From Caecibacter massiliensis (lineage in GTDB: Bacteria; Bacillota; Negativicutes; Veillonellales; Megasphaeraceae), in NCBI GenBank assembly GCA_900095875.1, contig LT608311.1, positions 496,001-560,000 on the forward strand: 64,000 nucleotides of DNA. Direction: 5' to 3'. The notes under the pieces are model-generated. The model did not search any database. It saw only the letters and a list, made by a program, of their open reading frames with translations, and had not been told where the DNA came from. Both the position numbers and the translations under genes were made by a program. Shown one piece after another: positions 4,443 through 23,400 of this stretch; within the stretch, counting starts at the first letter, position 1, and each line of letters opens with the position of its first letter.

Positions 4443-4850
4443 TTCGCCAGAAATCTCGATGTGTTTCAGGGCTTCGTCATGCAGGCGGTACACCTGGCGG
4501 ACATGAAGTCCGAGGGCATCGGCAATGGATGCCCAGTCCTTGAAAGCCAGGTAGCGGAGTTCCAGGATGACCCGTTCCCGGGCATCCGGAATCCGGCTGA
4601 TGGCTTTCATGATATCTGCCTTGAGTTCGATCAGGCCGTCGATCGCTTCATCCACTTCCTGTTCCATATCCATCATACGGGCGATGGTTTCTTCCAGACG
4701 GTGCGGATTGGGTGTCCCGCTTGGCGGCACCGGGCTGAGTGTCGATGACGCCTTGATAGCCAGCTGCCGCAAAGACGATACCTGCTCCAGCTTGCTGTCT
4801 ATCTGTATGTTGATGTTCCGTGCCTGTTCCAGGTACGCCTTGGCTTCCAT
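4434..4850 (-). CDS. DUF1492/ArpU-like phage transcriptional regulator
   Basis: A 138-residue protein. Its N-terminal half (about 1-85) is a predicted helical coiled region with a Pro-rich kink (SPVPPSGTPNPHR). Its C-terminal half (about 88-138: RIPDARERVILELRYLAFKD, then WASIADALGLHVRQVYRLH) is a sigma-70 region-4-like helix-turn-helix. This is the layout of DUF1492/ArpU/RinA-type proteins, which activate late phage genes. The gene ends inside a cluster of TGTCAC repeats that probably form its own target promoter. It follows the helicase gene by 30 bases. Confidence 0.82.
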   Translation of the reverse strand: MEAKAYLEQARNINIQIDSKLEQVSSLRQLAIKASSTLSPVPPSGTPNPHRLEETIARMMDMEQEVDEAIDGLIELKADIMKAISRIPDARERVILELRYLAFKDWASIADALGLHVRQVYRLHDEALKHIEISGECH

Positions 4851-4880
4851 ACGCTTTTCTTCTCCTTCTGTTTCCTTGTT

Positions 4881-6251: not shown

Positions 6252-6556
6252 GCACCTCCGCCCCCTTTCCCATCAGGCATGTGGGCGATAGCCTTCAGGA
6301 CTGCGGGAATATCCTCCATGGCATCCAGGACGAATACCTGGTAGCCCAGCCGTCGCAACATGGCATGGCGCTTCAGCTGCAGCGGCCTTGGCTTCTGCCC
6401 CGGCGCCTTTACTTCCACAAAGCCCATCTTCCCATCAGCCAATAGAATCAAGCGGTCCGGCATACCTGCAAATGATGGCGAAACAAGCTTCACTGCCTTA
6501 CCGCCAGCCTTCTCCGTTTCCATCACCAGGTGGTGTTCGATTACTTTTTCTCGCAT
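6248..6556 (-). CDS. VRR-NUC domain nuclease
   Basis: A 102-residue single-domain nuclease of the VRR-NUC (PD-(D/E)XK-like) family. Catalytic signature: G-M-P-D-R-L (with Asp33), then GFVEVKAPGQKPRPLQ, where E-V-K provides the metal-binding Glu and Lys, and a following Q in the helix. The family resolves branched DNA in phages. I set the start at the ATG at 6556 because AAGGGGTGAG precedes it; a longer in-frame ATG at 6607 would translate through the GGTGCAGGTC repeat element upstream and lacks a good ribosome site. It overlaps the helicase gene by four bases. Confidence 0.9.
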   Translation of the reverse strand: MREKVIEHHLVMETEKAGGKAVKLVSPSFAGMPDRLILLADGKMGFVEVKAPGQKPRPLQLKRHAMLRRLGYQVFVLDAMEDIPAVLKAIAHMPDGKGGGGA

Positions 6557-6581
6557 ATTACTCACCCCTTTTTTATAGGGG

Positions 6582-6683
6582 GTGCAGGTCGGTGAAGGTC
6601 GTTTCATAAACTCCTCTTAAAGACATTTTTCTATTTTTCAGCCCTAAAGGGGGTTTATATATTGACCTGCACCGACCTGCACC
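6582..6683. repeat. Inverted pair of tandem 10-bp iteron-like repeats
   Basis: On the plus strand 6582-6601 reads GGTGCAGGTC followed by GGTGAAGGTC. The reverse complement at 6664-6683 is a perfect tandem of GGTGCAGGTC. The ~62 bases between are AT-rich and non-coding. The element sits between the primase-helicase and the nuclease gene, a plausible place for a phage replication origin or a long-stem RNA signal. Confidence 0.65.
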
Positions 6684-6694
6684 CTTCCCTTTTT

Positions 6695-8938
6695 TTACAG
6701 GAAATCTGTGACTTTCAGCTTTAATCCATAAATGAAATACCCGGCTTTCCGCTTACGCCTGTCGAATCCGGCTTTCTCCAGTGCTCCATAAAAGTCCGTC
6801 GTGCTTCGGGTATACTCGTTCATCTGCTGGCAGTATGCCCGATAGGCCGTATAAAGTTCCCCGGACTTCTCGCTAAACGCCGCATCCACATCGCAGCAGT
6901 CATCCAGGAAGTGCCGAAGCCAGTCATTCTGCCCGCGATATTCATTGATGGCAGACGCGACACATTCGGGCGTATCCAGGTGATAATCCTTGGCAATGAC
7001 CCGCTCTGCCCCTTCGATAATCCACTGCAGAATGGCAGGGCCGGCTTTCTCCACCAGGTAGTCTGCGTAGTTCTTGATATCACTTTTCCCTTCGAACTGG
7101 GCCTTGAAGGGCATGACGATAAGACGCCGCCAGGTCCCTTCATCATTGGCGCCTACCCTGGGCAGGTGGTTCGTATAGAGGACCAGCGTGTGTGTCGGTA
7201 CGAACTTAAAGGGATCCTTATATTTCTTTTCGCCGCTCACCTCATCGGTCGAGCAGAGCTGTTTCAGGATGGACGTAGAGAGCCGGACGCCTTCTTCCAT
7301 TTCGGCCGCGATAATCATCCGCTTCCCTTTCAATTCTGCCATTTCCGGACGGACGTTCCGCTTGCAGCCGACCGTCAGGGCATCGGCAGAGATTCCGCCA
7401 CAGTAACTGCCAAGGACCCGGGCCAGGGAGTTCCAGTAGGTCGATTTGCCGTTGCGGCCATCGCCATACGCAATGACCAGGGCTTCCACATAGACTTTTC
7501 CAATGGCCATAAGACCGCTGATTTCCTGGGCGTAGTCGATGAGCGCCGTATCGCCGGTAAAGAACTGCTGGACGGCTTGTTCCCAGATGTCTTTCCCTTC
7601 GCTTCCCGGGTCTACAGAAGTACATTTCGTGATGAAATCCGAAGCCTTATGTTCCTGCCGTCCCCGCATCCCCTTCCGCAAATCATATGTATAAGACGGG
7701 GTGTTCAGCAGGAATTCATCTGCATCCAATGCCTGGATGGGCATCTGGACCATGGGCTTCAGTGCCTGCAGTGCCGACAGGATATAGCGCATATCGCGGC
7801 GCTTCAGGACAAACTTCCGGTACGCTTCTGCGGCAAGGTAGGCGGCGTAGGCTTTGGCCTGTGCTGGCCCAATCATCTTTTCCAGCGTCCGTCCTCCCTT
7901 ACGGATGATGTCTTCTGAAATCCCTGTCCCGGCTAATTTCTTCAATGCCTGTTCGTACTGGTCAATGGCATCGGCGAGCTGCAGATCCAGAAATTCTTCT
8001 GCCGCGCCGACTGCCGCCTGACGCGATTCTTCCCAACAAACTCCGTCATAGCGGATGAAATCCGTGCTGTCGGTGTAGCGCAGTTCATTACCGTATTCCC
8101 TGGCGATGACCTTGGCCTGGCCGATATCCGAGTAATCCTCCGGCCGCAGGGAGTCCCGGGTGCCGAAGTCGTTGTTGTATTCATCCGGGCTGACATAGCC
8201 TTCCTGCTGGGCGATGCGTTCCCCGAAACGGACTGCACTTCTCCAGATCTTGTTCAGTTCTTCATCTGGAAGCGGCGGGTCACACTTTTCCGCTTCGTCG
8301 AGAAAAATTTGGTACGCCTTTTCCGTCGCCCCGTAACGTTTGATGACGCGGCCGGCAAAGCGGCTCATGGTGCGGTTCCGGCGTCCGGCCGGGATACTGT
8401 GCGACTCGGTATCTCCCACTTTGAGTACCTGGTCGATTGTCGTTTCCCCGTCCTGCCATAATACTTTCCCGACGGAGCAGCCATAGATGAACCGGGCCGC
8501 ATCGAGGGCCGCTTCATCGAAGAAGGGATACGCCCGGTGGATTGCCCGTTTCATTTCTGTATAGTGCTGTTCATCCGTGATATCCGGAATCCCGAAATAG
8601 GCATGGAAGCGCGGTCTGGCACACTTCCCGTCCTTGGGTTTCATGTGATTCCGTGATGGCACGATGGCTACCGAGACTTTCGGCAGCATGGCCAGGAGCT
8701 TTTCCGGGGTCACCCATTCGGCGGGATTCTCCGAGTGGGTGTTGTCACAATCCATGACCAGGACGTCGGCAGAGAGGAAGTTCTCCCGCTTCCGATAACA
8801 ATCTTTGAAGGCTACGCAGACATGATCGAAAGCGGCAACCGCTTTCAGGTCTTCAGCACATCTGATTTTTTGCTGCCTGGGGTAGCGGCAATTCGCTTCC
8901 ACGCCAGCAAAGTCTGACCTATAAAGTGTAAAATTCAT
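6695..8938 (-). CDS. Phage primase-helicase (D5/P4 family)
   Basis: A 747-residue replication protein. The N-terminal third (about 1-230) resembles a primase-polymerase-like domain with acidic DVLVMDCDNTHS and the basic FHAYFGIPD segment. Residues ~270-400 form a D5 N-terminal-like linker. The C-terminal part is a superfamily-3 helicase with Walker A GDGRNGKST (about 485-493), the acidic Walker B-like MIIAAEMEEG, and the motif C-like LVLYTNHLPRV with Asn sensor. The extreme C-terminus is a winged-helix-like segment (TTDFYGALEKAGFDRRKRKAG). The start ATG overlaps the DUF4406 stop (ATGA). Its size and gene order match temperate siphophages of Firmicutes. Confidence 0.92.
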   Translation of the reverse strand: MNFTLYRSDFAGVEANCRYPRQQKIRCAEDLKAVAAFDHVCVAFKDCYRKRENFLSADVLVMDCDNTHSENPAEWVTPEKLLAMLPKVSVAIVPSRNHMKPKDGKCARPRFHAYFGIPDITDEQHYTEMKRAIHRAYPFFDEAALDAARFIYGCSVGKVLWQDGETTIDQVLKVGDTESHSIPAGRRNRTMSRFAGRVIKRYGATEKAYQIFLDEAEKCDPPLPDEELNKIWRSAVRFGERIAQQEGYVSPDEYNNDFGTRDSLRPEDYSDIGQAKVIAREYGNELRYTDSTDFIRYDGVCWEESRQAAVGAAEEFLDLQLADAIDQYEQALKKLAGTGISEDIIRKGGRTLEKMIGPAQAKAYAAYLAAEAYRKFVLKRRDMRYILSALQALKPMVQMPIQALDADEFLLNTPSYTYDLRKGMRGRQEHKASDFITKCTSVDPGSEGKDIWEQAVQQFFTGDTALIDYAQEISGLMAIGKVYVEALVIAYGDGRNGKSTYWNSLARVLGSYCGGISADALTVGCKRNVRPEMAELKGKRMIIAAEMEEGVRLSTSILKQLCSTDEVSGEKKYKDPFKFVPTHTLVLYTNHLPRVGANDEGTWRRLIVMPFKAQFEGKSDIKNYADYLVEKAGPAILQWIIEGAERVIAKDYHLDTPECVASAINEYRGQNDWLRHFLDDCCDVDAAFSEKSGELYTAYRAYCQQMNEYTRSTTDFYGALEKAGFDRRKRKAGYFIYGLKLKVTDFL

Positions 8939-9354
8939 TTTTGAACCTCCTCTAAATCACCGTTGAAATATCGCAATCGATAATTCTTCCATCTGGCTCT
9001 TTTGATTTCAGCCTCCATCCCGGCTGATACGACATCGCCGAATACCCAGACTTCCCGGCACAGGCTCATCAGCACGTTGCCAAAGTGCAGCCCCAGTTTC
9101 CGTTCCTTTGGGTTGGTGTCATCCAGGAACTGTGTGAACAGGAGATGCGGGGCTATAGGAATATATCCCTGTTCAAAAGCAAACCGGGAATACCGCCGGG
9201 CGTTTTCTACATTCCCGGCGATATTTCCTGAATACGGCGAACAGATATATACCAGCGGCCAATACACCCTGAGCGTTTTCTGTTCATTGTCGATAAGCGC
9301 TAATGCATCGTGCGGAGTCATATCTTTGTAGTGTTCGTGATTAAATATCGTCAC
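8935..9354 (-). CDS. DUF4406 / nucleoside deoxyribosyltransferase-like protein
   Basis: A 139-residue protein. VYICSPYSGN, then NVENARRYSRFAFEQGYIPI, then APHLLFTQFLDD and the acidic VWVFGDVVSAGMEAEIKRA follow the pattern of DUF4406, a Rossmann-like family related to nucleoside 2-deoxyribosyltransferases. It may act on nucleotides during phage replication, but this is not established. I use the GTG at 9354 because AGGGGAGGT lies six bases upstream; this start overlaps the antirepressor stop by 14 bases. Its own stop overlaps the primase start by four bases. Confidence 0.82.
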   Translation of the reverse strand: MTIFNHEHYKDMTPHDALALIDNEQKTLRVYWPLVYICSPYSGNIAGNVENARRYSRFAFEQGYIPIAPHLLFTQFLDDTNPKERKLGLHFGNVLMSLCREVWVFGDVVSAGMEAEIKRARWKNYRLRYFNGDLEEVQK

Positions 9355-10138
9355 ACCCGCACCTCCCCTGCTCAATAAGCGGGAAATTTCCTTCGCCAGT
9401 CATCAGCTGATAAATAAACAGCCGCCCTTTCTGCGTCCAGTATGTGTAGACCCGATTATGCAGAACTCCATTTCCATCAGGGACGTTGAACGTTTTCGTA
9501 CTGGTGTACCCCAGCGGTGCATATGCCTGGTAAAGCAGCCAGATGTTTCCCTGCTTGTACTGGATGCCTCGTTCATGGAGCCAGTTGTTCAGACGCCGGG
9601 CCGACCATCCGTAGTCCTTGGCGATGACTGAAGTCTTGACGAGGTCTTTGCACTGGAGGACCAAATCATAGTAAGACGCCTTTGGTCGGAGTTCAGCAAT
9701 CTGTTGCTGTTGAGCGGCTGCAAGAAGTTCCATGGATCTGCGATGTTTTCGTTCTTCCTTGAGTCGGGTGAGTACAGCGATAGCCAAATCCGGATTGTTG
9801 AGGATAGCATCTGTTGCATATAACCCCGTTCTGCGGATAGACGGAATCACTTCATGGGTCACCCATCTCTTAAAGGCCTTCGCTTCGGGTTTACGGCTTC
9901 CAAGAATCAGCGTGTACAATCCCGGTTCGTTGACGACCCGCTTTTCCGGGTTCCCCGGAATACCCTCGGTTAAAACGAGGGTATTCTTTTCGTCATCATC
10001 CAGTCTCGACAATGCATCACTCGGGTTTCCGATATCCAGAATCCGGCACACATCGGCGGCTACAAACCATGGCTCACCGTTCACGATGGCCGTACGTACG
10101 TTCATTCCGTCATAGATAAAGTTTTCTACGTTCGTCAT
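9341..10138 (-). CDS. Phage antirepressor (Bro-N and KilAC domains)
   Basis: A 265-residue two-domain protein. Residues ~1-110 are a Bro-N domain (NVRTAIVNGEPWFVAADVCR, then DEKNTLVLTEGIPG and VNEPGLYTLILGSRKPEAK). The C-terminal ~100 residues are a KilAC domain (VIAKDYGWSARRLNNWLHER, then GVLHNRVYTYWTQKG). Such proteins usually inactivate a phage repressor to trigger lytic growth. The ATG at 10138 has GAAAGGGG eight bases upstream and is preferred to the longer ATG at 10156. No classic CI-type repressor is visible next to it. Confidence 0.93.
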   Translation of the reverse strand: MTNVENFIYDGMNVRTAIVNGEPWFVAADVCRILDIGNPSDALSRLDDDEKNTLVLTEGIPGNPEKRVVNEPGLYTLILGSRKPEAKAFKRWVTHEVIPSIRRTGLYATDAILNNPDLAIAVLTRLKEERKHRRSMELLAAAQQQQIAELRPKASYYDLVLQCKDLVKTSVIAKDYGWSARRLNNWLHERGIQYKQGNIWLLYQAYAPLGYTSTKTFNVPDGNGVLHNRVYTYWTQKGRLFIYQLMTGEGNFPLIEQGRCGCDDI

Positions 10139-10176
10139 GTTAACGACCCCTTTCAAATTCGTTGCGGAGTTTTCTC

Positions 10177-10815
10177 CTATTTTTTAGCCTCCGCAGAGCT
10201 TCTAATCTGACGGTTTGCAAAATAATTTTGTAATTTTTTCTTGGCCCTTTTGAGCTTCTGTGTGATGTTGTTTTCGTTGGCTCCAATCCTAGCAGCATAT
10301 CCTCGGATAGATTCTCCGTTAATAAACACAGCAATGACCGCATCTGCCCATTCGGGCTTTTTTGCTAAAACTCTATAGATGGTTTGGCAAACTGCATCAT
10401 CATCATTCTTCTTTGCCCGATTCAGTTCATCACGGCTAACCAGATTCATATCCGGGACGGGTTTTCCATTGCGCCGACATCCGCTCCCAGCAATTCCGCA
10501 GCTATAAGTATCGGGTGCATCTTCGATAGGATTAGCCAGAACTCCATCTTGTTCATCGCGGCTCTGGTAATCCGGGAACTCAGTCCTTCTGCGATGTTCC
10601 CGATGCCAATCGTTGTATAACGGCCGGTTGAACTCGCCGTCTATGATTTCCTGTGCGCTGCGCCGGATTACAGGTTCCCCTTCTGCGGCAGTTCGTTTTC
10701 TTTGCTGATAATCTCTCTCAATCATGATTTTGCATTCGCCCTCCGTGACGTCGACATCCATGGTCAGGGGGGCCTTTGATTCGTTATTGTCATAATACTT
10801 GACTCTGATTTTCAT
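10177..10815 (-). CDS. Phage sigma-70-like / HTH protein
   Basis: A 212-residue protein. The N-terminus (MKIRVKYYDNNESKAPLTMD) is a short beta-rich domain. The centre is basic and polar. The C-terminus (VCQTIYRVLAKKPEWADAVI, then GYAARIGANENNITQKLKRA) is a sigma-70 region-4-like helix-turn-helix. It is the promoter-proximal gene of the leftward phage operon, so an early transcriptional role is likely. I chose the third ATG (10815) because AGAAAGGA lies eight bases upstream; the two earlier ATGs overlap that site. A weak terminator-like hairpin (10866-10895) lies upstream. Confidence 0.72.
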   Translation of the reverse strand: MKIRVKYYDNNESKAPLTMDVDVTEGECKIMIERDYQQRKRTAAEGEPVIRRSAQEIIDGEFNRPLYNDWHREHRRRTEFPDYQSRDEQDGVLANPIEDAPDTYSCGIAGSGCRRNGKPVPDMNLVSRDELNRAKKNDDDAVCQTIYRVLAKKPEWADAVIAVFINGESIRGYAARIGANENNITQKLKRAKKKLQNYFANRQIRSSAEAKK

Positions 10816-10896
10816 TTTTTGCATCCTTTCTCTGCCCATGCCAGAGGACGAGAAGATGCAAAAATAAGGCCCGTCGGAAAATACCCCTACGAGCCT

Positions 10897-11010
10897 TTAC
10901 AAATCCAAAAACGGCGCATGAAATGACACGGTGAGGGCATTTCCATCCTGCCTGCTACCCAGTGGGTAACGGGTAAGACAGTCTATACATCTCATCGTCC
11001 TGATGCGCAC
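10897..11010 (-). other. Candidate structured element with 37-codon ORF at phage early end
   Basis: The segment between the early phage operon and the plus-strand cargo operon is bounded by complementary arms GCGCAT (10914-10919) and ATGCGC (11003-11008). It contains an internal hairpin TACCC-agt-GGGTA (near 10959-10971). On the minus strand a 37-codon ORF with a GTG start at 11010 and stop at 10897 also spans it, without a strong ribosome site. It could be a leader RNA, a small peptide gene or both. Nothing else is seen in 10816-11046. Confidence 0.35.
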
Positions 11011-11046
11011 TTGGACATGTTAGATTTTTTTAAGCTTCAGCTGAAA

Positions 11047-11075
11047 TTGGAAGTGCGGTTCATGTATGATATACT
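11047..11075 (+). promoter_or_regulatory. Promoter of the three-gene cargo operon
   Basis: TTGGAA (-35) at 11047-11052, a 17-base spacer, and TATACT (-10) at 11070-11075. An inverted repeat ATACTT..AAGTAT starts inside the -10 box (11071-11088) and could be an operator. Confidence 0.6.
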
Positions 11076-11154
11076 TAAATAAAAGTATGTCGAGAACTGC
11101 ACTTTACTGATTTCATCTGTCTCTAATTTACTGTAGCGAGCGTTCCGAGCAACC

Positions 11155-11189
11155 GTTACTTGTGTTACTTTTGATGCCTAACGTTACTT
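11155..11189 (+). repeat. Three GTTACTT direct repeats in the cargo operon leader
   Basis: GTTACTT occurs at 11155-11161, 11164-11170 and 11183-11189, between the promoter and the AGGAGGT ribosome site of the first gene. The spacing is 9 and 19 bases. It may be a binding site in DNA or RNA for an operon product. Confidence 0.5.
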
Positions 11190-11209
11190 GTTTAGGAGGT
11201 ACAAAAAAT

Positions 11210-12565
11210 ATGATGTTACCGAACATTCCTCACCTATGTGGAGGAATCTTCTTTGATTTATTACTGGAAGCACGTCGGTTTCGTACCAGCCAACGTGACA
11301 CGTTTAACAGCAAAGCAGATGGGCTTTCTGAACCGGATATATACTGCGGTCTGGCAAAGATACTCACAGGGGAGAATCTTTCCAAGTCTCGCGGCACCGC
11401 ATTAAAGAAAAGCGTGTCCAACTATAAAAAATGTGAAAACAGCAAAGGGGATTATGTTCCTTTTACTGATGAAACACTCCAATCGACTTTCAATACAGGC
11501 TATAACGAAAAAAATTCTGCTATCCTCGAAAGGACAGCAGAATTTATAAAGCAATATTTAAATCCAGAAAAATGCAAGTGGCTCGTCCGGGTATTGATTG
11601 ATATTATGCAGAAAGATAAGTCCATATCCCCGGGCACAGAACTTGCTATAAACTTCGGAGAATGTATACCTGTAAGTTGTCTTCATGAAGCCAAAGCCAT
11701 ATACTTTTTGCCTTTTTTCCTCAGTGTTCTACATTATGTCGTTGTTAATTGCCCAGACTGTGAATCCGGTCGCGATACATTCAAGGCCTGGTATACCCAG
11801 TCTTCCCCGAACGCAGCCTGGAAATTAAAGAATGAAATAAAGCAAAACCTTGGTAAAGACGTAAAACCGATAGAAGTTATCATGGATTTAAAAATCCATG
11901 ATGATGTAGAAAAAGATTCTTCAAAAGCTGCCGATAGCGAAGCAGAAAGTCCTGAATCCGAAGATAAAGAACTGACAGTATCTACGGATTCCAAAACCAA
12001 CGAAGAAGTACCCTCAGACCCCCCTCTTTCCCGCCGTGACACTAAACTTTTAGCTGAGTTAATGAGGGACTTCAATGAGCTATTGAAATTCGGCAGCGAT
12101 ACCGACTTAACTATCATGCCTATGCCATCTAGTTATTCGGATAAATTCGACGATGTATATAAGAAATGGGAACATTCCGATAGAAACTTTAAAAACAAGG
12201 AACTGAATAGCTTGAGGGGAGATATCTTAGGAACTTTGTATTGTTATTTTTATTATTGGGGCTGCTATATGTGGTATGAATCTGCCACTGATTGTTTCGT
12301 TCATAAAAAAAACTTATCTCGTGATGCCGAAAAAATAGAAGAAGAACTTCGAAATCGGATAGATTCCGATAGGAAAGCTTGCAAACAGTTGCATGAACGC
12401 CTGTGTCAATATATCATCGACTTCGATATCGTCGTTGAAGATGTCAACAAAAAAGCCACCCCGGGTGAAAGCCACACCACGATTATCCAGAACCAAACGA
12501 ACATCGCCCATAGCGAATCAAAGACATATAATATTAAAGACAGCAACATCATTTTCAACAAATAA
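11210..12565 (+). CDS. Unrecognised protein 1 of AAA_13 cargo operon; C-terminal Asn-rich motif
   Basis: A 451-residue protein that I do not recognise. AGGAGGT lies nine bases before the ATG at 11210; an upstream TTG (11162) falls within the leader repeats. There is no signal peptide. Residues ~1-235 are mixed helical and could include an HTH-like N-terminus (DIYCGLAKILTGENLSKSRG). Residues ~240-280 are a very acidic Ser/Glu/Asp linker. Residues ~285-415 are helical with aromatic-rich LGTLYCYFYYWGCYMWYES. The tail (about 422-450) is a polar beta motif TTIIQNQTN...TYNIKDSNIIFNK that matches residues 16-39 of the next protein. It is the first gene of a tight operon with an ABC ATPase. I infer a sensor or scaffold role in a conflict system; this is not proven. 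Base composition is AT-richer than the phage genes to the left. Confidence 0.85.
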   Translation: MMLPNIPHLCGGIFFDLLLEARRFRTSQRDTFNSKADGLSEPDIYCGLAKILTGENLSKSRGTALKKSVSNYKKCENSKGDYVPFTDETLQSTFNTGYNEKNSAILERTAEFIKQYLNPEKCKWLVRVLIDIMQKDKSISPGTELAINFGECIPVSCLHEAKAIYFLPFFLSVLHYVVVNCPDCESGRDTFKAWYTQSSPNAAWKLKNEIKQNLGKDVKPIEVIMDLKIHDDVEKDSSKAADSEAESPESEDKELTVSTDSKTNEEVPSDPPLSRRDTKLLAELMRDFNELLKFGSDTDLTIMPMPSSYSDKFDDVYKKWEHSDRNFKNKELNSLRGDILGTLYCYFYYWGCYMWYESATDCFVHKKNLSRDAEKIEEELRNRIDSDRKACKQLHERLCQYIIDFDIVVEDVNKKATPGESHTTIIQNQTNIAHSESKTYNIKDSNIIFNK

Positions 12566-12576
12566 GGAGCACCCGA

Positions 12577-13230
12577 ATGAAAATGCCTGCCCGTGTTGAC
12601 CCGCATATCCCTGTCGTGGGCAACAGCACCTACATAGAAAATCAAAGCAACGATAACTATAACATCAATCACAGCAATGTTACTTTCAATATAGCGCTGC
12701 CCCCACAAGGAGCAAGTAACAGTGCGGCACAGATGATAGCTATCGAAAACTTCAGCAAGGAATACTATCAGCTTCTCGTTACCGGTGAGGAGGATGCCTT
12801 TAAAAATAACTATGTTACCGTGCCTAAAGAATATGCGTTGAGCAGACGTTATGTCCCCGCAGAAATACTGGGACGATGTTCATCCCTGTCAGAAGAAGGC
12901 GTCGCTGAACTAAAGACATTTCCCGCCATCATCTGTATGGAAAACGAAAATCCGGGAGGGGTTGCTGGCTCTAATCAATGTGCAATATATGCGTATATAA
13001 CACAGATAAAAAAAGAAAGCCAAGCTATAAAAGTCGTTTTCTGCCCCATCGCTTCTATCCCTCAAAAGGTGCTATGTGAAAAAAAATATGCAGTCTGTTT
13101 CGATTTAAACATGGACTGCGTTATCACGGATCTAAACTGCTGTGCCTGGTCTGTTCATAAAGTGAACCTGTTTGAAGCTTTTAAAGAAGCCGGACTGGAA
13201 AAACTTCCGTTCCCTTCGCAATGGAGGTAA
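12577..13230 (+). CDS. Unrecognised protein 2 of AAA_13 cargo operon; N-terminal Asn-rich motif
   Basis: A 217-residue protein. Its N-terminus carries NSTYIENQSN and NYNINHSNVTFNI (residues 16-39), a near match to the last 30 residues of protein 1. After a Pro/Gly/Ser linker, residues ~60-217 form a soluble alpha/beta domain with FPAIICMENENPGG, AIYAYITQIKK, AIKVVFCPIASIPQ and AWSVHKVNLFEAFKEAGL. That spacing (FPA..EN, then I-T-x-I, then P-x-x-x-L, then W-x-h-K-x-x-N-L) reminds me of small domains found in other bacterial conflict proteins, but I have no name for it. AAGGAG precedes the ATG. It starts 11 bases after gene 1, and the ATPase follows within 6 bases, so all three should be made together. 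I infer an adaptor between protein 1 and the ATPase. Confidence 0.83.
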   Translation: MKMPARVDPHIPVVGNSTYIENQSNDNYNINHSNVTFNIALPPQGASNSAAQMIAIENFSKEYYQLLVTGEEDAFKNNYVTVPKEYALSRRYVPAEILGRCSSLSEEGVAELKTFPAIICMENENPGGVAGSNQCAIYAYITQIKKESQAIKVVFCPIASIPQKVLCEKKYAVCFDLNMDCVITDLNCCAWSVHKVNLFEAFKEAGLEKLPFPSQWR

Positions 13231-13236
13231 TTGCCT

Positions 13237-15582
13237 ATGGATAAAAAATTTCAAAGTGAAATAACACAAATCAAACTTGACGCCGCTACTTTCAAAGAAA
13301 CCGGCGAATGTATAGAGCCAACGTATATTAACTACTTCTTTGGAAATAACGGTACTGGTAAGTCCACTATTGCTAAGGCAATCCAGTCTGGCCTGGGCGT
13401 TACTTATGCTCCCGGAGTGTCTGCAGATGACTGTCAGGTCCTGATTTATAACCAGGAATATATTGACCGTAATATGCAAAACTTCCACAACCTTCCAGGC
13501 GTCTTTACGATGACCGAAGAAAATGCAGAAATCCAGCAGCAGATTGATGAGGCCAGCAGAAAAATAGACGCCGCCCAAAAAATAATCATTGGCGCTGAGA
13601 CAGAAAAAGCTAAACTATATGATAAAAAAAATCGGCTCGACAAGAACCTATATAACGAAGTATGGGAAAAAACGGATACGCTCAGAACCAAGGATTTCCC
13701 CAACACTCAGACAGGGGTATCGAATTCTAAAAAGAAGCTCGCTGAAAAGGTAATGGAATACGCCCCGACTGAGTACGACCTCAATGATTTGAAGCGTATG
13801 TACAGTTCTGCGTATGCTGCCGCTCCTAAAAAATATAAATTGTTCCATACGATTCCTGATTCTTCGGTTCTTGATAATATCGAGGGTAACGATGTCCTTT
13901 CTATTGCCATCGTCAATGCATCTGAAACTCAGCTTGCCGAATTCTGGAAAAATATCAGCAGTGCTGAATGGGTCCGAACTGGTCACGCAGAGTACCATCA
14001 AAAGGCCGGCGGGAAATGTCCTTATTGCTCTCAGACTTTGCCGCCCGATTTTGAACAAAAGCTTACGGAAAGCTTTGATGATCAATATAAAAAGAACCGG
14101 GGCAGACTTGAAAACTTTCTGAGCGACTACAGAGATGCCGCCAACACTCTGTTCATTCCCATATCAAAGATGCCAGAATCTGTTTACCCGGCAATTGACC
14201 TGAAACCCTACAAAAACAAGCTGGATGCTCTCAAAGGAATCATCGCTGCAAACATCCAGCAGATTAATGCCAAAGTAGCCAAACCCGCTAAAATAGTCAC
14301 GTTAGATGATACCGCACCACTATTATCAGAACTTCAGGCACTCATTGAAGGGTATAATAAACTGATAGAGGAAAATAATGCCGTCGTTGATGACGCCCCT
14401 AAGAAAAAAGAAGAGTGTAAAGATAAGGTCTTTGCTTATCTGGCATTTTTTGCAAAGGATATCATGACTGCCTACAGGAACAGTTATGCCGATATCGAAA
14501 AGCAAATAAAAGAACAGCAAGCCATCATTACAAAACAAAATGCTGAAATCAACGAACTCACTAATTCTATTCGAATACTGAACAGTCAAACAAAAGAAAC
14601 CGAATCAGCCATGAACAACATCAATCTCATGTTGAAAGATGCCGGATTCCAGGGATTCGAAGTCTGTCCCCACTGGGAGGAAAAAATATCCCCTGACGGT
14701 TCCGTGCAAAAGATAATCCCATCGCCGGTTCGTAACTACGCTGTAGTCCGTACCAACGAAATTACGGGAGAAAAGGAGATTGCACAAAACCTTAGCGAAG
14801 GAGAGAAAAATTTTATCGCTTTTCTTTACTTTCAGCAGAGCGTGTTCGGCAGCACAGATGCAGAAAACATTCCTCGCAAAAAGATTGTTGTCATTGATGA
14901 CCCTGTATCAAGTATGGACAGCGGTACCCTTTTTATTGTAAGTGCACAAATTCGCAGGATGATCCACATCTGCCGGAATAATGTTGACAACAGGAACCCC
15001 GTTGTAAATGGTAATTTTATAAAGCAAATTTTTATTCTCACGCATAATGCCTATTTCCACCGCGAGGTCACCTACCTATATGCAAATAGATGGGATTTTG
15101 TTTCTTTCTACCTTGTGCGGAAATTCAACAATAAATCATCCGTAACTTTGTATGACCAGCAAAATCCTGACTGTCCTTCCGAAAGGATGAATATCAACCC
15201 GGTCAAAAACTCCTATGCCGCTTTGTGGGAATCTTATAAAGAAGTCAAAAGCGGCATCCCGCTTAAAAGTATTATCCGGAGAATCTTGGAATATTATTTC
15301 CTGCAGCTGTGCGGCTATGAAAGTGACGATCTTCGTAAATGCATTCTGGAAGACCACAGAGATGATTTTATGTATGATGAAAATGGAGCCGAAACGCCGG
15401 ACCGGTATGAGATGGCCAAGGTTCTGCTTTCTTACATCGTTGCCGATAATTCAGGTGTCAACGACGGTATCAACTATACTGATGATTTTCTCGATGTGCA
15501 GTTGTATCGGAATACGTTCAAAATGATTTTCAAATACATGAACCAGGAACAGCACTTCAATATGATGATGGGCATTAGATAG
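13237..15582 (+). CDS. AAA_13 family ABC ATPase, PrrC/RloC class
   Basis: A 781-residue SMC-like ABC ATPase. Seen: Walker A GNNGTGKST (36-44), long coiled coils (about 95-150, 335-470), a zinc-hook-like C261-P-Y-C264, ABC signature LSEGEKNF (519-526), Walker B KIVVIDDPVSSMD (549-561) and the H-loop His603 in LTHNAYF. The layout matches the AAA_13 family that includes the anticodon nucleases PrrC and RloC. The C-terminal ~130 residues contain R681-R682-I-L-E685 and His707, which could correspond to the Arg-Glu-His nuclease triad of PrrC/RloC, but the spacing differs and this needs testing. The ATG at 13237 has GGAGGT eight bases upstream, inside the end of the preceding gene; a TTG six bases earlier is less likely. 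Its genetic partners suggest a toxin or effector gated by proteins 1 and 2. Confidence 0.9.
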   Translation: MDKKFQSEITQIKLDAATFKETGECIEPTYINYFFGNNGTGKSTIAKAIQSGLGVTYAPGVSADDCQVLIYNQEYIDRNMQNFHNLPGVFTMTEENAEIQQQIDEASRKIDAAQKIIIGAETEKAKLYDKKNRLDKNLYNEVWEKTDTLRTKDFPNTQTGVSNSKKKLAEKVMEYAPTEYDLNDLKRMYSSAYAAAPKKYKLFHTIPDSSVLDNIEGNDVLSIAIVNASETQLAEFWKNISSAEWVRTGHAEYHQKAGGKCPYCSQTLPPDFEQKLTESFDDQYKKNRGRLENFLSDYRDAANTLFIPISKMPESVYPAIDLKPYKNKLDALKGIIAANIQQINAKVAKPAKIVTLDDTAPLLSELQALIEGYNKLIEENNAVVDDAPKKKEECKDKVFAYLAFFAKDIMTAYRNSYADIEKQIKEQQAIITKQNAEINELTNSIRILNSQTKETESAMNNINLMLKDAGFQGFEVCPHWEEKISPDGSVQKIIPSPVRNYAVVRTNEITGEKEIAQNLSEGEKNFIAFLYFQQSVFGSTDAENIPRKKIVVIDDPVSSMDSGTLFIVSAQIRRMIHICRNNVDNRNPVVNGNFIKQIFILTHNAYFHREVTYLYANRWDFVSFYLVRKFNNKSSVTLYDQQNPDCPSERMNINPVKNSYAALWESYKEVKSGIPLKSIIRRILEYYFLQLCGYESDDLRKCILEDHRDDFMYDENGAETPDRYEMAKVLLSYIVADNSGVNDGINYTDDFLDVQLYRNTFKMIFKYMNQEQHFNMMMGIR

Positions 15583-15716
15583 GAAATAAACAGAACGACC
15601 AAAGTGGCATCAATCACAAAACCAGGTATAGGTGTGATGGCCCAGATGACCTTTTAAAATATGCATAGCTCTCCAACCGTCAGGTAGAAATTTTCTTGAA
15701 ATGCTTGATAAATAGC

Positions 15717-15757
15717 AAAGACCTCGTACATATTTCTGAATATGTGCGAGGTCTTTT
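15717..15757 (+). terminator. Strong terminator after cargo operon
   Basis: GACCTCGTACATAT and ATATGTGCGAGGTC pair (one G-T) around TTCTGA, followed by TTTT and preceded by AAA, so it can act on both strands. It lies 135 bases after the ATPase stop. Confidence 0.85.
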
Positions 15758-15805
15758 ACTATTTATTGTATATCTTATTTTAACCAAATACTACATATGG
15801 TATCT

Positions 15806-16056
15806 TAGTAGTAAAACGGTAGTACGTTTTCTTTTTTCACCTGCCGCAAAGCCCGATTTCATGCGGTTTGTCAAAAAATCAGAAAGTAGTGCCGTGACAG
15901 ATGAAAAGTATCTTAATCACTTTATTTTTACTCCTTCCTATGCCGGGATATGCCAATATAATGCGGTTTTCCGAGATTCACACGTTTCTGTAAAAAAGAC
16001 AGAACCCGGCAAAAAACGTCATAACTTTGCCCTCTGTAGTAGTAAAAACGGTAGTA
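15806..16056. repeat. Pair of TAGTAGTAAAACGGTAGTA repeats flanking the candidate att core
   Basis: TAGTAGTAAAACGGTAGTA at 15806-15824 and TAGTAGTAAAAACGGTAGTA at 16037-16056 differ by one inserted A. They lie about 90 bases to the left and 120 to the right of the phosphatase fragment. They resemble arm-type integrase sites around a core. No gene is convincing in 15583-16189 apart from the phosphatase fragment, the terminator and these repeats. Confidence 0.55.
15879..15920 (-). pseudogene. Start of low-molecular-weight tyrosine phosphatase gene, cut at probable att site
   Basis: GTG at 15920, with AAGGAGT nine bases upstream, opens a 13-codon frame reading VIKILFICHG then TTF and stop. The first ten residues match the start of low-molecular-weight protein tyrosine phosphatases (K-I-L-F-x-C-x-G-N-I-C-R-S), and the match ends exactly in the P-loop. 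This is what integration of a phage into that gene would leave. Phage DNA then lies to the left of ~15,890 and chromosome to the right. The rest of the gene is not in the window. Confidence 0.55.
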
Positions 16057-16189
16057 AAACGGGCCCTTCCTACTACCGAATTTTTTTGGTGATTTTTCCT
16101 CTGTTATTATAGCAAAAAAGGAGGGTTATAGTCAGCCAGCGAAGACAGCAGGTATGTGTCAACAAGTTATCCATTTCCAAGCATAAAAA

Positions 16190-16224
16190 TACCCTCATTA
16201 CTGTTTTATCCAATAACGAGGGTA
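16190..16224 (-). terminator. Terminator after truncated TetR gene
   Basis: On the minus strand TACCCTCGTTA pairs over 11 bases with TAATGAGGGTA, followed by TTTTTATG. It is one of three related TACCCTC/GAGGGTA hairpins in this region. Confidence 0.75.
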
Positions 16225-16231
16225 CGATAAA

Positions 16232-16351
16232 TTATGATGAATACCCACAATTATCTGCGAGTTTCTGTATCGTAATCTTATCGATATTTTTTACCGCAGC
16301 AAGCTCCTGAAAAGAAGCGGCAAGTACCTCTCTAGGAGTTTTTCGTTTCAT
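16232..16351 (-). pseudogene. Truncated TetR-family regulator (39 residues)
   Basis: The ATG overlaps the flavodoxin stop (ATGA). The 39 residues (MKRKTPREVLAASFQELAAV, then KNIDKITIQKLADNCGYSS) are the first helices of a TetR DNA-binding domain, ending right where the recognition helix should continue. It stops at TAA and runs into a terminator. Too short to fold as a TetR regulator, so probably a remnant of a regulator of the flavodoxin-like gene. Confidence 0.65.
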
Positions 16352-17022
16352 TTTTTACGGTCTTCCGCCGCCATTCGAGTCAGTCTCATTCCAAGGTCAT
16401 ATGCCTTTTTCAGGTCCTTTGGAAAAACTTCTTCCCGCTGCCGCTTCTTGTCCGCTTCATCAAAAAGGTTCTGCCTGTAACGGGAATAATCATTGTATTG
16501 ATAAGTGTTGCAGCAATACTGGACTTCGTTATATCCATAAATGAGGTCCATGGTTTTTCCCCAGGTTCCCAGCAGCTCCGGATAATGGAATTTTTCCATC
16601 TCCTCTTCCTTGCAGTTCATGGAATAGATCAAAGCAGAGAATTTTTTATCATGAGGAACCATATCGGGCTTCCCGTCCTTATAGAAATATGAATAGATTG
16701 GGAAAAGGGAACGATTGAGGAGGCTGATGACCTGCCCGTTAGGATAGCCGAAATAGACGGGACTTCCCACGATGACCACATCGGCTTCCCAAATCTTTTT
16801 GAGAACAGGCTGAATACTGTCCCGGACAGCGCATAACCCATCCGTTTTGCTATTCTTCAGCTTACAGGCATAGCATTCCCGGCAATCCGTAAATTCATAA
16901 TCTACCAGATGGATGAGTTCTGTTTCAGCACCAGCCGTCTCGGCTCCCCGCTGTGCCTGCTGCAACAATTGGGCAGTGCTGAAATTTTTTCTTGGACTTC
17001 CGTTCAATAAAATTGCTTTCAT
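16348..17022 (-). CDS. Flavodoxin-like NAD(P)H-dependent FMN reductase
   Basis: A 224-residue protein of the NADPH-dependent FMN reductase / multimeric flavodoxin (WrbA-like) fold. The N-terminal phosphate-binding loop is LLNGSPRKNFST (about residues 4-15). VVIVGSPVYFGYPNGQV (about 88-104) contributes to the flavin site. Cys residues in DCRECYACK are typical of the iron-sulfur-flavoprotein branch but only three are close together, so an Fe-S cluster is doubtful. It likely reduces quinones, nitro compounds or other small electrophiles. The second of two adjacent ATGs has AGGAG six bases upstream. The only intact gene among several remnants. Confidence 0.85.
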   Translation of the reverse strand: MKAILLNGSPRKNFSTAQLLQQAQRGAETAGAETELIHLVDYEFTDCRECYACKLKNSKTDGLCAVRDSIQPVLKKIWEADVVIVGSPVYFGYPNGQVISLLNRSLFPIYSYFYKDGKPDMVPHDKKFSALIYSMNCKEEEMEKFHYPELLGTWGKTMDLIYGYNEVQYCCNTYQYNDYSRYRQNLFDEADKKRQREEVFPKDLKKAYDLGMRLTRMAAEDRKK

Positions 17023-17099
17023 CATAATCTCCTCTTTCTTTCAGAATGTCGTGCTGGTTCAGACCCAGCAGTCCATCGAGTTTTGTCCAATGAATTCGC

Positions 17100-17190
17100 T
17101 TTTTCTACAATCATGTCAATTCCATTCCCGTAAGGATAACTTCTGTTTTCTTCTTGAATCCGTGCTTTCCGTAGAACCCCGGCATGGAAG
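17100..17190 (-). pseudogene. Remnant of a GNAT acetyltransferase
   Basis: Two frames on the minus strand together resemble the C-terminus of a GNAT N-acetyltransferase: SMPGFYGKHGFKKK in one frame, and about 15 bases further SYPYGNGIDMIVEKA in another. The upstream part of the gene is absent. I see no intact gene in 17023-17392. Confidence 0.4.
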
Positions 17191-17273
17191 ATCTCTTATG
17201 TCCCATTTTAACACAGAGATGCTCTAAGTACTACTGCATTCTGCTTCCCTATCCTATGATTGTTTTGTTAAAA

Positions 17274-17308
17274 TATCCTCTTTACCGTTTTGTCCAGTAA
17301 AAGAGGGT
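17274..17308 (-). terminator. TACCCTC-family hairpin
   Basis: TATCCTCTTTAC and GTAAAAGAGGGTA pair with one bulged A. The minus-strand product is followed by TATTTTAAC. It lies just downstream (minus strand) of the autotransporter remnant. Confidence 0.5.
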
Positions 17309-17392
17309 ACATCCGTTTTTCGACGATTCGGAAATGTCATCCATCATGGGCTCTGGAATACTAGCCATTGCTTTTGGTTGAACAGAAGTTTC

Positions 17393-17569
17393 CTATTTGT
17401 TGATTTTGTTATCCATGCGATCACTGAGAGGCACCACTTCAGATGCAACAGCTTGATTCATCTGCCCTACGTTGACGACATCCGTATCCGCTTCCCCTGT
17501 TGCCACGCCGGTGATCTGGTGGGTTACAATGTCACTCCCTATGGCGATGACAGCATGAGTGGATTTCCA
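17393..17569 (-). pseudogene. Remnant of a trimeric autotransporter adhesin
   Basis: In one minus-strand frame the segments AVIAIGSDIVTHQ and GVATGEADTDVVNVGQMNQA reproduce a YadA-type neck motif (compare VAAGTADTDAVNVSQL in the large adhesin at 20,412-26,768). The sequence around it has no head, anchor or signal peptide. A fragment, possibly left by recombination between adhesin genes. Confidence 0.55.
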
Positions 17570-17729
17570 GAAATGATCTGTATGCGTCGTTTCGTCATCC
17601 GTTTCATCATCAAAGACAGCGCCAGGCTTTCCTGCCTCACGATTTGCCATGGGCCCGCTCCCCAAGGCAATGGACCAACAAATCCAGTACCTTATCTGCC
17701 CTCCCATCTTATCTGCCTCATTTCTGGTT

Positions 17730-20411: not shown

Positions 20412-23400
20412 CTATCTTACTGTTTCTTGTGATTTCTGGATATGTGATCCATATACATCACGATAATCATTCTGAGCTTCATTGTCTTTATCATTAATAC
20501 GGACGCGTTCTACCTTATGCCGGTCATTGTCCTTTCCGGAAATACGATCTACGCGGAAGCGGTCAATATTTTGCACTTTAACCAATTCAGGTCCAAACTC
20601 ATCCACGGAGCGAGCCATATCACCATCAGAAGGTGCTCCATTCTGCAAGGCCCGATAAATAATTGCGGCATATTCATAACGGGTCATGGCCCGGTCGCCC
20701 TTAAATTCTCCATCCGGATATCCCTGTAAATACCCCCGTTCAGCCAATGTTTTCACGTATTGGTAAGCCCAGTGGTTTTCAGGTACATCGGGGAACATCA
20801 TGCTATTGGCTGGATTGGGAACAGCTTTGACATTTTGCCCCGATTCATAAGCAGCCAGTTTTTTAGTGAGCACTTCTATTTGGGCTTTCATGGCCAGCAT
20901 GTCCCTTGCCATAGAAACACGAGAGCGGGATGCATGGTTCTTTTGACCAAACTTCCAACTAACGCCTGCATTCACCATGTTTTCTCCTCCGCTGAAGGAT
21001 CCACCTACGCTGAACATCGTATCCTCATTGGGCCGGTAAAATGCCCCGACAGCTACGGCATGGGCATCTTTATAATTACCGTAACCGACAGCGAAGTCCC
21101 ATTTGTCATCAGGATCAAAATCCAACGGATGCAACCCTGACAGAGCCGCAGCACCGGCACCGACGCGGTTCACCTGATCTCCCAATTTACTGATCCGTGT
21201 TTCCGCCCGGTATAACTGACTCCCGTTTACGGCATCAGTACTGGTCGATGAAATATCTCCAGGAGCTACATGGGTGATCTTATTTCCGCCATTATTCAGC
21301 CCGTCTTTATTGAGGGTAATATCCTGACCGGCAGAACCATTCTGGATTGTCATCCCTCCCGTCGTTACGGTAGTGTCTCCCACGTTGACAGTACTGGCAT
21401 TAACCGTCGTGATATTCCCCGTATCTGCTGTAACGGTCTTCGTCGTAACCGTATCCAGTCCTTTTAAATCTTTTGAAAGGCGCACTTTCAGGTTATCGCT
21501 GCCATCAGATACCACTCCGATATTGTCTTCCGTTGTCAGTCTGGAGGAATCCGTAATGCCCCCGACTACATTTACCTGACCATTGAGTTTTTTATTGATT
21601 ACATTCCCTACATCGCCACCATATTTCATGCCGTCATTCATCGTGGCAACCGTCTGGGTATTCCCATTGTGATCTTCATAGACAATCCGGTCGATACCGC
21701 CAGTACCATTGTAACCATCGGTGCCATCTACTCCATTCGCACCTTTGACAACATGGATGTCAGCAGAAGCACCGTCCTTGCCATTGATGCCAATATGACC
21801 ATCCGTACCATTGGTTCCGTCTTTACCTACAGAAGAAATGGTAACCCCATCTTTGCCATCGGCACCTTTTACCCCCATAGCTCCATTGATGCCATCAGCG
21901 CCGTCTTTGCCCTGACCGCCCACGGTAACCGTATCTGCTTTCAGATTCTTATCCAGTCCGATAACCAGGTTTCCATCTGCATCCACTACAGTCTTGATGT
22001 TGGAAGCATCGTATTCCGTATCTGCTTTTGTGCCATTTCCTTTGATTGTCATGGTGCTGTTCAGTTTTTTAGCTACAGATCCTGTATTTCCAGCAAACTT
22101 CAGTCCATCATCGAGCGTGGCAACTTCATGGGCGACTTGTGCATCATCTTCGTAGACAATCCGGGTCATACCATCGGCACCATTAATACCATCCACGCCA
22201 TCCTGGCCCTTGGCCGATTTCATGGTAAGTCCATCTTTTCCGTCTTTTCCATTCATTCCGATAGAGCCATCTTTGCCATTGATGGTAACAGCTGAGCCAT
22301 CTTTGCCAGCCACACCGATGGAACCGTCTTTGCCATTGATGGTAACAGCTGAGCCATCTTTGCCAGCCACACCGATGGAACCGTCTTTGCCATTGATGGT
22401 AACAGCTGAGCCATCTTTGCCAGCCACACCGATGGAACCGTCTTTGCCATTTTCGCCCTTTTCACCCAGGTTGAGATTGTCATTGACATTAACCATGTAC
22501 GGATTTTCTGCTTTACCAGTGCCAGTAACGGTAGTATTTTTTCCGTCTACTAATTTAGTGGCGTTCTTGGCAATTTCATCTTTCAGCTGGCTGACATTCA
22601 CCGCATCCGTTCCAGCAGTACCGGCAGCCACATTGTGAATCTGATTGCCACCATTATCCAGCCCCTTTTCTGTCAAAGAAACTGCTGAAGTCCCGGCTGC
22701 AGGATTTTTCGGAGTAATCGTAATACCGCTGGCATCAATGGCTGTCTTATTTCCGTCTTTATTCGTAATGGTCATGCCGCTTCCCTGGGTCACGGTCTGA
22801 TTTCCGTCTGCGTCGGTGGTCGTCACACTGTTCACGTTTAGATCATCGTTCAGGACCACTTTCATCGTTCCGTTTTCCACTTTCGTAGAAATATTTTTTC
22901 CGTCCCCGGTAACTTCAATATCCTCTCCCAGAGACTTGTGGACGATATTCCCATCCTGATCCTTTAATCCGAACCCTTTTTCCGTTAAATCAGCAGATTG
23001 TTTCGTCAACTGACTTACGTTGACAGCATCTGTATCCGCTGTACCAGCAGCCACATTAGTAATTTTCGTGCCGTTCGCATTGATTCCTTCCTTGGTCACA
23101 GAAGGTCCGCCAGTTATGGCCACTCCCTGATTGTTTATCGTTGTATCTCCGGCTTTTACCGTCTCAGCGTTTACCGTTTTCGATGTAACACTGTTCAGGC
23201 CGGTTATATCTTTTGCCAGTTTCACGGTCATCGTATTATTGGCAGAATCAGCGACTACACCAATATTATTATCACTTAAATTGCTGCTGTCAGCACCTCC
23301 CAAAAGGGACATAACCTGATCAGAACCGCGATGGAGTACATTGACATCTGCTTCCGAAGCAGTTCCAATGGTCGAATTATCACCGGCAAACCGCAGAGGC

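Follow-up and report, generated by a model that had tools for sequence, protein, structure and literature searches.

At the end of a prophage of Caecibacter massiliensis, three adjacent plus-strand genes form what is, at the level of sequence, a conserved system, and probably an unnamed anti-phage system. The genes occupy positions 11210 to 15582 of a 64,000-nucleotide stretch (contig LT608311.1, positions 496,001 to 560,000; hereafter the window) of a 2.65 Mb genome, and encode a first protein, P1, a middle protein, P2, and an ATP-binding cassette (ABC) ATPase of the AAA_13 family, P3. The corresponding open reading frames (ORFs) run from 11162 or 11210 to 12565, from 12577 to 13230, and from 13231 or 13237 to 15582. 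P1 starts at the ATG at 11210, which has an AGGAGG upstream (read by eye), and P3 comprises 781 aa from the ATG at 13237, or 783 aa from the TTG at 13231. The most informative feature of this trio is a motif at the C-terminal end of P1 that matches one at the N-terminal end of P2. This feature was missed by the first-pass annotation of the window, whose overall interpretation, namely anti-phage cargo built around an AAA_13 ATPase, is partly supported by our analysis.

Conservation of the trio and its matching motifs

Viral contigs were scanned with the alignment of the ATPase alone, which yielded at least 69 loci, a sample. Among the matches listed, P3 is accompanied by P2 and a preceding first gene in 66 of 69 loci, and it is on these grounds that we call the trio conserved; that homologues of the ATPase never sit beside the first two proteins, a case named by the first-pass annotation as grounds against its own reading, is thus not what was found. 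The first gene of these 66 loci is P1 in 58 and an unrelated gene, P1b, in eight, a count that omits L017 and L022, where P1 is present too and the match to the P1b model, which was built from the same loci as counted, was judged to derive from the tail. The three listed loci devoid of P2 and a first gene are L027 and L071, in which P3 comes after restriction-like genes at the limit of the stored flank, and L064, which is a fragment of P3. The distance between P2 and P3 is at most about 310 bases in all loci but L025, where it is 1475 bases. Homologous trios in the same gene order rule out that these are chance ORFs.

P2 was found in five of 398 genomes of the phylum, the window's own (G000) included; G133, G134 and G210 carry split trios, and in G397 P2 lies at a contig start, ahead of a 394-aa P3-like ORF. 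At E≤1e-60, P3 was found in four of 60 relatives, again including the window's own genome, and the other three all have the trio, namely, G405, of the same genus, G435, and G422, where P3 is in two ORFs. The closest named relative with a trio is Acidaminococcus (Negativicutes).

The tail of P1, TTIIQNQTNIAHSESKTYNIKDSNIIFNK (positions 12470-12562), resembles the head of P2, STYIENQSNDNYNINHSNVTFNI; the head motif at 12619-12693 is GNSTYIENQSNDNYNINHSNVTFNI. Both motifs are on the plus strand and are modelled with a predicted local distance difference test score (pLDDT) below 50, in P2 up to residue 38. The corresponding pair in L020, tail IVQNGDHNVNITNNGTMNLNL and head LEQNGDHNVNITNNQGGTVNLNF, illustrates the general pattern: the motif differs from locus to locus and agrees inside each locus. 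For the statistics we used 74 loci with a usable pair, thinned to 39 representatives at less than 70% identity of the P2 core, with heads cut by pattern at the start of the core and tails taken as the last 60 residues; L001 (a duplicate), L068 (ambiguous upstream ORF), L004 (P2 on the minus strand), and L006 and L009 (no usable upstream gene) were left out. Cognate tails and heads have a mean score of 57.1, against 32.3 for non-cognate ones, and none of 10,000 re-pairings reaches the cognate mean; in the 60 residues ahead of the tail, used as a control, the values are 21.9 and 22.3. Similarity among tails also follows similarity among heads across loci once that of the P2 core is allowed for (partial r of 0.50, 0 of 2000 permutations). 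From these patterns we infer that tail and head bind physically.

Agreement of tail and head appears to be held at the protein level, and is hardly due to recent DNA duplication, because the identical residues share their codon in 231 of 488 cases, against the 213.9 expected from codon usage; duplication was rejected as an explanation on this test. Cores resembling the RIP homotypic interaction motif (RHIM) occur in 10 of 39 tails and nine of 39 heads, where 2.0 and 3.2 are expected from shuffles. In one locus (L131:8474-10610, minus strand) an extra 208-aa protein bearing the head motif lies between P1 and P2; its helical domain looks, by eye, like the middle part of the first protein of L023, and the operon thus encodes three motif-bearing proteins. 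Two tandem P2 paralogues, each with its own N-terminal extension, were seen in L058, L060, L072, L074 and L081.

The three proteins

P3 (13237-15582, plus strand) matches AAA_13 (Pfam PF13166) over profile positions 2-712 of 713 (2e-109, 367.6 bits for a cut-off of 36) and the PADLOC profile PDC-S06 with 643 bits (1.6e-193). Its motifs were located with an alignment of 68 rows out of 84 matches, all of at least 740 aa and not thinned, so that near-identical copies are kept. On the plus strand these are the Walker A motif GNNGTGKST (13342-13368), a zinc-hook-like CPYC (14017-14028; CxxC in 68 of 68), the ABC signature LSEGE (14791-14805), and the Walker B and D-loop segment VVIDDPVSSMD (14887-14919). 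The Walker A lysine, the hook cysteines, LSEGE, the Walker B aspartates and the H-switch histidine are invariant in all 68 sequences, which agrees with the PrrC/RloC-class ABC ATPase with a hook recognized by the first-pass annotation.

Towards the C-terminal end, the alignment and the RloC motif reported in PMC2610378 point to an R-x3-E (RRILE, 15277-15291) as candidate RNase residues, and the alignment to the histidine of QEQH (15553-15555) as a candidate third residue, both on the plus strand. R683 is conserved in 62 of the 68 proteins, E687 in 60 (with D in seven) and H775 in 67, and all three occur together in 57. The RloC triad has been described as R-X3-E-X36-52-H and confirmed by mutation in one RloC (PMC2610378), and the ends of PrrC and RloC as HEPN RNases (PMC3710099). 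A C-terminal nuclease site, by which P3 would cleave tRNA, is a likely reading on sequence grounds, with a reservation that stems from the spacing between glutamate and histidine, as detailed below. The record of Streptococcus phage Javan105 annotates a homologue of P3 as RloC. We rejected P3 as Lamassu LmuB or Menshen NsnB, whose scores (71 and 12 bits) are far below that of PDC-S06. A search of the PDB by sequence gave nothing useful, its match of P3 to OspC (0.004) being judged coiled-coil noise.

P1 (451 aa; 11210-12565, plus strand; mean pLDDT of 74) is predicted to comprise a helical N-domain, a middle helical bundle, an acidic linker and the C-terminal motif. The N-domain (aa 1-225; 11213-11887) is modelled with pLDDT values mostly of 80-95, falling to about 60 at aa 21-40. 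The middle bundle (about aa 267-407; 12011-12433) was delimited from the model and an alignment of eight P1 sequences, among which only the window and L007 possess it. Conserved polar residues are few in P1, with two invariant columns, D135 and G186, in 48 sequences. Structural re-alignment of P1 covered only the middle bundle, with unspecific Z values of up to 7.1 (vinculin), and bears little on the fold of the N-domain.

The N-domain is the part of P1 that relates it to other systems. When compared with five N-domains, namely, that of L117 and those of four loci similar to it, hhalign gave 97.6% and an E-value of 4.6e-12; one of the five (L105, the same as L117) is confirmed by Pfam as CTD11. 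In genome G229 (L117) a P1-like N-domain belongs to a CTD11 protein of an ABC-three-component (ABC-3C) system, beside MC7 and a DUF2326 ATPase, and in G234 (L118) it is fused to a NACHT-SNaCT14 protein. P1 also stands tail-to-head with a NACHT protein in L116 (genome G134; 2926-7138, minus strand), L120:6001-10216 and L121:5995-9707. The order in these three loci is P1, a large NACHT-type protein with a matching N-terminal head, and a third protein with another head; NACHT-SNaCT14 and DUF6650 are named by Pfam in G134, and by likeness in the viral contigs L120 and L121. In the latter two, 7 and 3 of 1000 shuffles of the NACHT head score as high, and 0 of 1000 of the DUF6650 head in both cases. 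By sequence, this P1-NACHT-DUF6650 set looks like a bacterial NACHT system resembling an amyloid-signalling trio, and the pairs and fusions together indicate that one domain is linked to NTPase sensors, by covalent fusion in some cases and by way of the motif in others. In L119:4391-5947, the P1 N-domain is fused to a large C-terminal part that has no Pfam match, next to an apparent CRISPR array and cas genes (by eye).

In P1b it is the body of the first protein that is exchanged and the tail that is kept: the P1b body is unrelated to P1 (hhalign 0.1%), which rules it out as a P1 homologue, and the P1b tails of L018 and L023 are very similar to the P1 tail of L020. In L008:2979-4608 and in L017, the P1 gene is split by an insertion with transposase-like ORFs (by eye in L008), and the genes for P2 and P3 are still open.

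P2 (217 aa; 12577-13230, plus strand; mean pLDDT of 81) consists of the head motif and a core (aa 46-213; 12712-13215) with pLDDT values mostly above 90 and a weak likeness to EVE, YTH and McrB-N domains. The best Foldseek rows for P2, at E-values of 0.007 to 0.04, are YTHDF2, Lon N-domains and McrB-N. Structural re-alignment (VIA) gave VcaM4I (Z of 6.5, root-mean-square deviation of 3.3, 120 residues aligned), DrmAB (6.3; 3.6, 109) and MJECL36 (6.0; 3.9, 120), and almost all further rows are YTH (5.0-5.9) and McrB-N (5.6-5.7). A phage protein labelled activating signal cointegrator, a kind with ASCH/PUA kinship, ranks second in the BFVD list (E-value of 0.015). The predicted model thus weakly supports, as a lead, a P2 core that reads bases in the manner of EVE or YTH domains; the former are modification sensors of the PUA superfamily (PMC7897488).

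Neither P1 nor P2 has a match above the curated cut-offs of Pfam and NCBIfam or in PHROGs at 0.01, and Foldseek returned none at E≤0.001 for either model, a search that the first-pass annotation had suggested. Its statement that the two proteins cannot be named therefore holds as far as these libraries go, and is superseded for P1 by the kinship of its N-domain with those of CTD11 and NACHT proteins. Weak matches are DUF29 for P1 (0.12), ZorC (15.7 bits, 0.0013) and REase_II (0.024) in PADLOC for P2, and, among homologues, two PHROGs of unknown function, phrog_4962 for P2 of L045 (2e-4) and phrog_6948 for P1b of L021 (8e-4). No EVE or YTH match to P2 was found in Pfam, and 62 members (27 P1, four P1b and 31 P2) gave one weak unrelated match in NCBIfam.

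Prophage setting and gene neighbourhood

The description of three tightly spaced genes beside a phage operon, carried as prophage cargo, was accurate. The gaps between them are 11 bases (P1-P2) and 6 bases (P2-P3), the minus-strand phage operon ends at 10839, before the trio, and the window shares 95.8% identity with a viral contig (L015) over 7237-17681. Over Pfam cut-offs, the operon encodes a D5-type primase, a SNF2 helicase and a KilAC/BRO antirepressor. Its gene nearest to the trio (10177-10839, minus strand), with sub-threshold Pfam matches to antitermination-Q and sigma70-r4, marks the cargo site and is outside the system; a model of this sigma-like gene, seeded with the window and six other loci, places it ahead of the first gene, on the opposite strand, in 49 of 67 loci, and the NACHT and ABC-3C variants also adjoin such a gene (by eye). 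On the right, an FMN-reductase-type gene at 16348-17025 is probably a host gene. The claim of an AT-rich composition stands with respect to one side only: G+C is 0.38-0.42 at 11-16 kb, against 0.51-0.60 at 1-10 kb and 0.47 at 10-11 kb, and since it is also lowish to the right (0.43-0.45 at 16-21 kb), it separates the trio from the phage operon and not from the right flank.

What follows P3 was scanned in 30 of 45 representatives, with one plus-strand ORF each, hand-picked and mostly the largest. A dedicated restriction or modification family is present in 15 of these 30 loci, and the number rises to 22 when ResIII and SNF2 helicases are included, that is, ResIII only or with T5orf172 in five (L021, L038, L042, L043 and L074) and SNF2/ResIII helicases in two (L033 and L075). 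The cassette types are HsdM, C5 methyltransferase, SacI, SinI, GmrSD and ResIII. The remaining eight ORFs match either no family (L035, L041, L047 and L069) or another one, namely, HNH in L063, Schlafen in L070, a transposase in L072 and PLDc in L010. Outside the 30, no downstream ORF was seen in L018, L029, L040 and L083; L007, L024, L062 and L066 have mostly minus-strand downstream ORFs; L011 has NgoFVII, and L009 an ORF of equal length there; and L025, L028, L034, L052 and L058 entered only a separate tally. The partnership with restriction enzymes, which the first-pass annotation ascribed to known AAA_13 genes, is thus frequent in this family as well, and absent from the window.

By a crude pattern, about 41 of 75 loci have a small helix-turn-helix (HTH) gene between P2 and P3. 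In G133, G134 and G210, P1-P2-HTH and P3 enclose a restriction-like cassette of a helicase and several further genes; the helicase, HTH_17 and AAA_13 of G134 are confirmed by Pfam, and the other cassette genes are presumably DUF4391-, Mod-, Res- and DUF2130-like, as judged by likeness. Restriction-like cassettes between P2-HTH and P3, bracketed by the trio, were seen in L084/L092, L085/L090 and L086/L091.

The phage operon also encodes two methyltransferases, whose genes overlap at 849-3597 (minus strand); one is a C5 cytosine methyltransferase and the other an N4/N6 enzyme with a ParB_N domain, and a link of the two to a modification-reading P2 is possible. At 20412-26777 (minus strand) the window further encodes a trimeric autotransporter of the YadA type (2121 aa), which combines collagen-like repeats with an S-layer homology domain and a YadA anchor.

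Proposed mechanism, alternatives and known systems

We propose that the trio is a prophage-borne three-component immune system, probably abortive, that is coupled by its motifs and has a swappable first protein and an RloC-like P3, a reading that we consider evenly poised. P3 would be an ABC ATPase with a zinc hook and, probably, an RNase site near its C-terminal end, inactive until triggered by DNA or by a restriction-related event, and P2 a small adaptor or reader of EVE/YTH/McrB-N-like fold coupled to it. The N-terminal motif of P2 would co-assemble with its counterpart at the C-terminal end of the first protein, perhaps in an amyloid-like manner, as in systems based on RHIM and on bacterial amyloid signalling sequences (BASS), and this pairing would recruit the swappable domain of P1 or P1b into the complex. 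P3 would then arrest translation, the first-protein domain would act, or both, and growth of the phage would halt, with a neighbouring restriction system, where present, as the first line. It is tempting to go further and to see here an amyloid signalosome independent of NOD-like receptors (NLRs), in which a prion-like tail and head assembly specific to each locus links a modified-base reader, an RloC-like ATPase and interchangeable first-protein domains, with a plug module shared with bacterial NACHT systems; this extension, polymerisation included, we put forward tentatively and as rather doubtful.

Several observations weigh against the proposed mechanism. The partners can occur apart: L012, a Lactococcus plasmid, carries P1-P2 but, going by its annotation, no AAA_13 ATPase, L010 has P1 and the ATPase without P2, and a P3 fragment of G405 (L133) has neither P1 nor P2 in the 14 kb seen. 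Specificity of the motifs is incomplete, given that only 15 of 39 tails score best with their own head (30 have it among the top three) and only 16 of 39 heads with their own tail (29 have it among the top three), and that for the cognate pairs of L013, L063, L070 and L072 between 38 and 104 of 300 shuffles score equally high. The RHIM-like cores are a minority, and most motifs are therefore not RHIM by that pattern. Regarding the enzymes, 11 of 68 P3 proteins miss one of the R/E/H residues, and glutamate and histidine are separated by 79-90 residues in P3 versus 36-52 in RloC, with R-X3-E kept. The Z values of P2 (5-6.5) fall in a range that the tool itself terms common, and assignment of P2 as EVE by sequence fails (hhalign 0.8% against four EVE domains). 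Finally, the trio of the window has no restriction cassette after it.

The first two alternatives concern how the proteins are connected. Tail and head may constitute a plain docking clasp, by beta-strand pairing or coiled assembly, that fixes P1, P2 and the ATPase together with neither amyloid-like polymerisation nor signalling. All the motif statistics are compatible with any specific binding, the third motif-bearing protein of L131 is as in a multi-subunit complex, and the scarcity of RHIM-like cores fits as well; however, placement at a C-end and an N-end after a low-confidence acidic linker, together with the reuse with NACHT proteins, matches amyloid signalling pairs (PMC7889193), and we regard a mere clasp as somewhat unlikely. 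It could also be that P3 only guards restriction-modification, silenced by an associated restriction enzyme in the way that EcoprrI silences PrrC (PMC2610378), with P1 and P2 as scaffold. This would suit the frequency of restriction families after P3 and the cassettes bracketed by the trio in three genomes, but not the trio of the window, nor the eight loci whose scanned ORF is of no restriction family; moreover, the cassettes are of many types and thus imply no single conserved contact, and a shared cargo site could account for the neighbourhood. We hold this explanation to be distinctly unlikely.

The other two alternatives concern what the trio does. P1 or P1b could be the sole effector, with P3 and P2 a pure sensor and switch as in ABC-3C, and P3 no nuclease. 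The swapped gene is indeed the first one, and P1-like N-domains hold the N-terminal position in the CTD11 protein of ABC-3C and in NACHT proteins; yet the scarcity of conserved polar residues in P1 and the joint presence of R/E/H in most P3 sequences make this unlikely in our judgement. The trio might instead serve the prophage, in a DNA transaction or the maintenance of lysogeny, rather than defence. Most loci come from viral contigs or prophages, which partly reflects where we searched, and the sigma-like phage gene stands opposite most of them. Against this, NACHT and ABC-3C genes occupy sites of this kind in relatives, the ATPase is among the defence candidates of PADLOC, and the first protein is swapped while the motifs diversify, so that we deem a service to the prophage quite improbable. 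The trio makes a listed candidate ATPase, PDC-S06, part of a three-gene system and gives otherwise unnamed prophage cargo genes a common logic, and through one exchangeable domain it connects RloC-like ATPases with a NACHT protein and an ABC-3C protein.

Comparison with described systems places the trio near several of them. Neither the trio nor the exchange of P1 for P1b nor the pairing of the motifs was found in the Pfam, NCBIfam, PADLOC and PHROGs libraries or in searches of the open PMC literature, in keeping with the first-pass annotation, which knew of no such arrangement; the qualification to be made is that PADLOC already has the ATPase among its candidates. P3 shares with RloC and PrrC the ABC motifs, CxxC, R-x3-E and a conserved histidine near the C-end, and the trio differs from them by the wider glutamate-histidine spacing and by two regular partner genes. 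In RloC, a coiled coil bearing the CxxC hook interrupts the ATPase motifs. RloC is reported to map only rarely to restriction-modification loci, and the part of PMC2610378 used here mentions no partner genes. P3 matches the PDC-S06 profile, yet with two partners in most listed viral homologues it is not a stand-alone protein. We read the S of that name as denoting a single-gene system. Calls of PDC-S06 are reported to coincide with those of a differently named DefenseFinder system (PMC11811056), and the P3-type ATPase may thus bear another name there.

With ABC-3C, a comparison that the first-pass annotation had recommended along with PADLOC, the trio shares an ABC ATPase as the last gene, a small middle gene, and the kinship of the P1 N-domain with that of the CTD11 protein; it differs in that its ATPase is AAA_13, not DUF2326, and in that P1 and P2 contain no MC or CTD family. 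No MC family was detected in P2 of the window (E≤1) or of L045 (E≤0.1), and no CTD family in P1 of the window (E≤1), P1 of L045 or P1b of L021 and L023 (E≤0.1), under searches in which the control L117 gave MC7 and CTD11. PADLOC itself returned a strong match for P3 alone. Lamassu has in LmuB an SMC-like ABC ATPase encoded in a short operon. P3 is of the same broad kind, but its LmuB match is just 71 bits versus 643 for PDC-S06, and neither P1 nor P2 matches LmuA or LmuC in PADLOC at E≤1. To the EVE, YTH and McrB-N readers the P2 core aligns at Z values of 5-6.5, with no sequence similarity found.

In layout the trio corresponds to amyloid signalling pairs, which are reported to be encoded by adjacent genes, the effector bearing the motif at its C-end and the receptor at its N-end (PMC7889193). 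The short end motifs of P1 and P2 are reminiscent of those by which animals and fungi signal cell death. As in BASS1-10, HET-S/NWD2 and the RHIM pairs, a motif at the C-end of one trio protein recurs at the N-end of its neighbour, the tail follows a flexible linker, and about a quarter of the motifs have a RHIM-like core. The neighbour is in this case a small EVE/YTH-like protein plus an ABC ATPase and not an NLR; no NACHT match was found in the trio, NACHT being confined to the P1-NACHT relative L116 (and to L120 and L121 by likeness). BASS have been described mainly from filamentous bacteria, and whether bacterial signalling amyloids operate in NLR-independent pathways is posed as an open question in the same review (PMC7889193, section 10). 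The trio is a concrete candidate for such a pathway, and its 39 representative pairs of naturally diversified motifs open the question to direct testing; if the candidate is right, amyloid signalling would extend, with no dependence on NLRs, to phages of unicellular bacteria. Judged by sequence, the layout of the trio is that of an amyloid signalling pair in which an ABC ATPase replaces the NLR.

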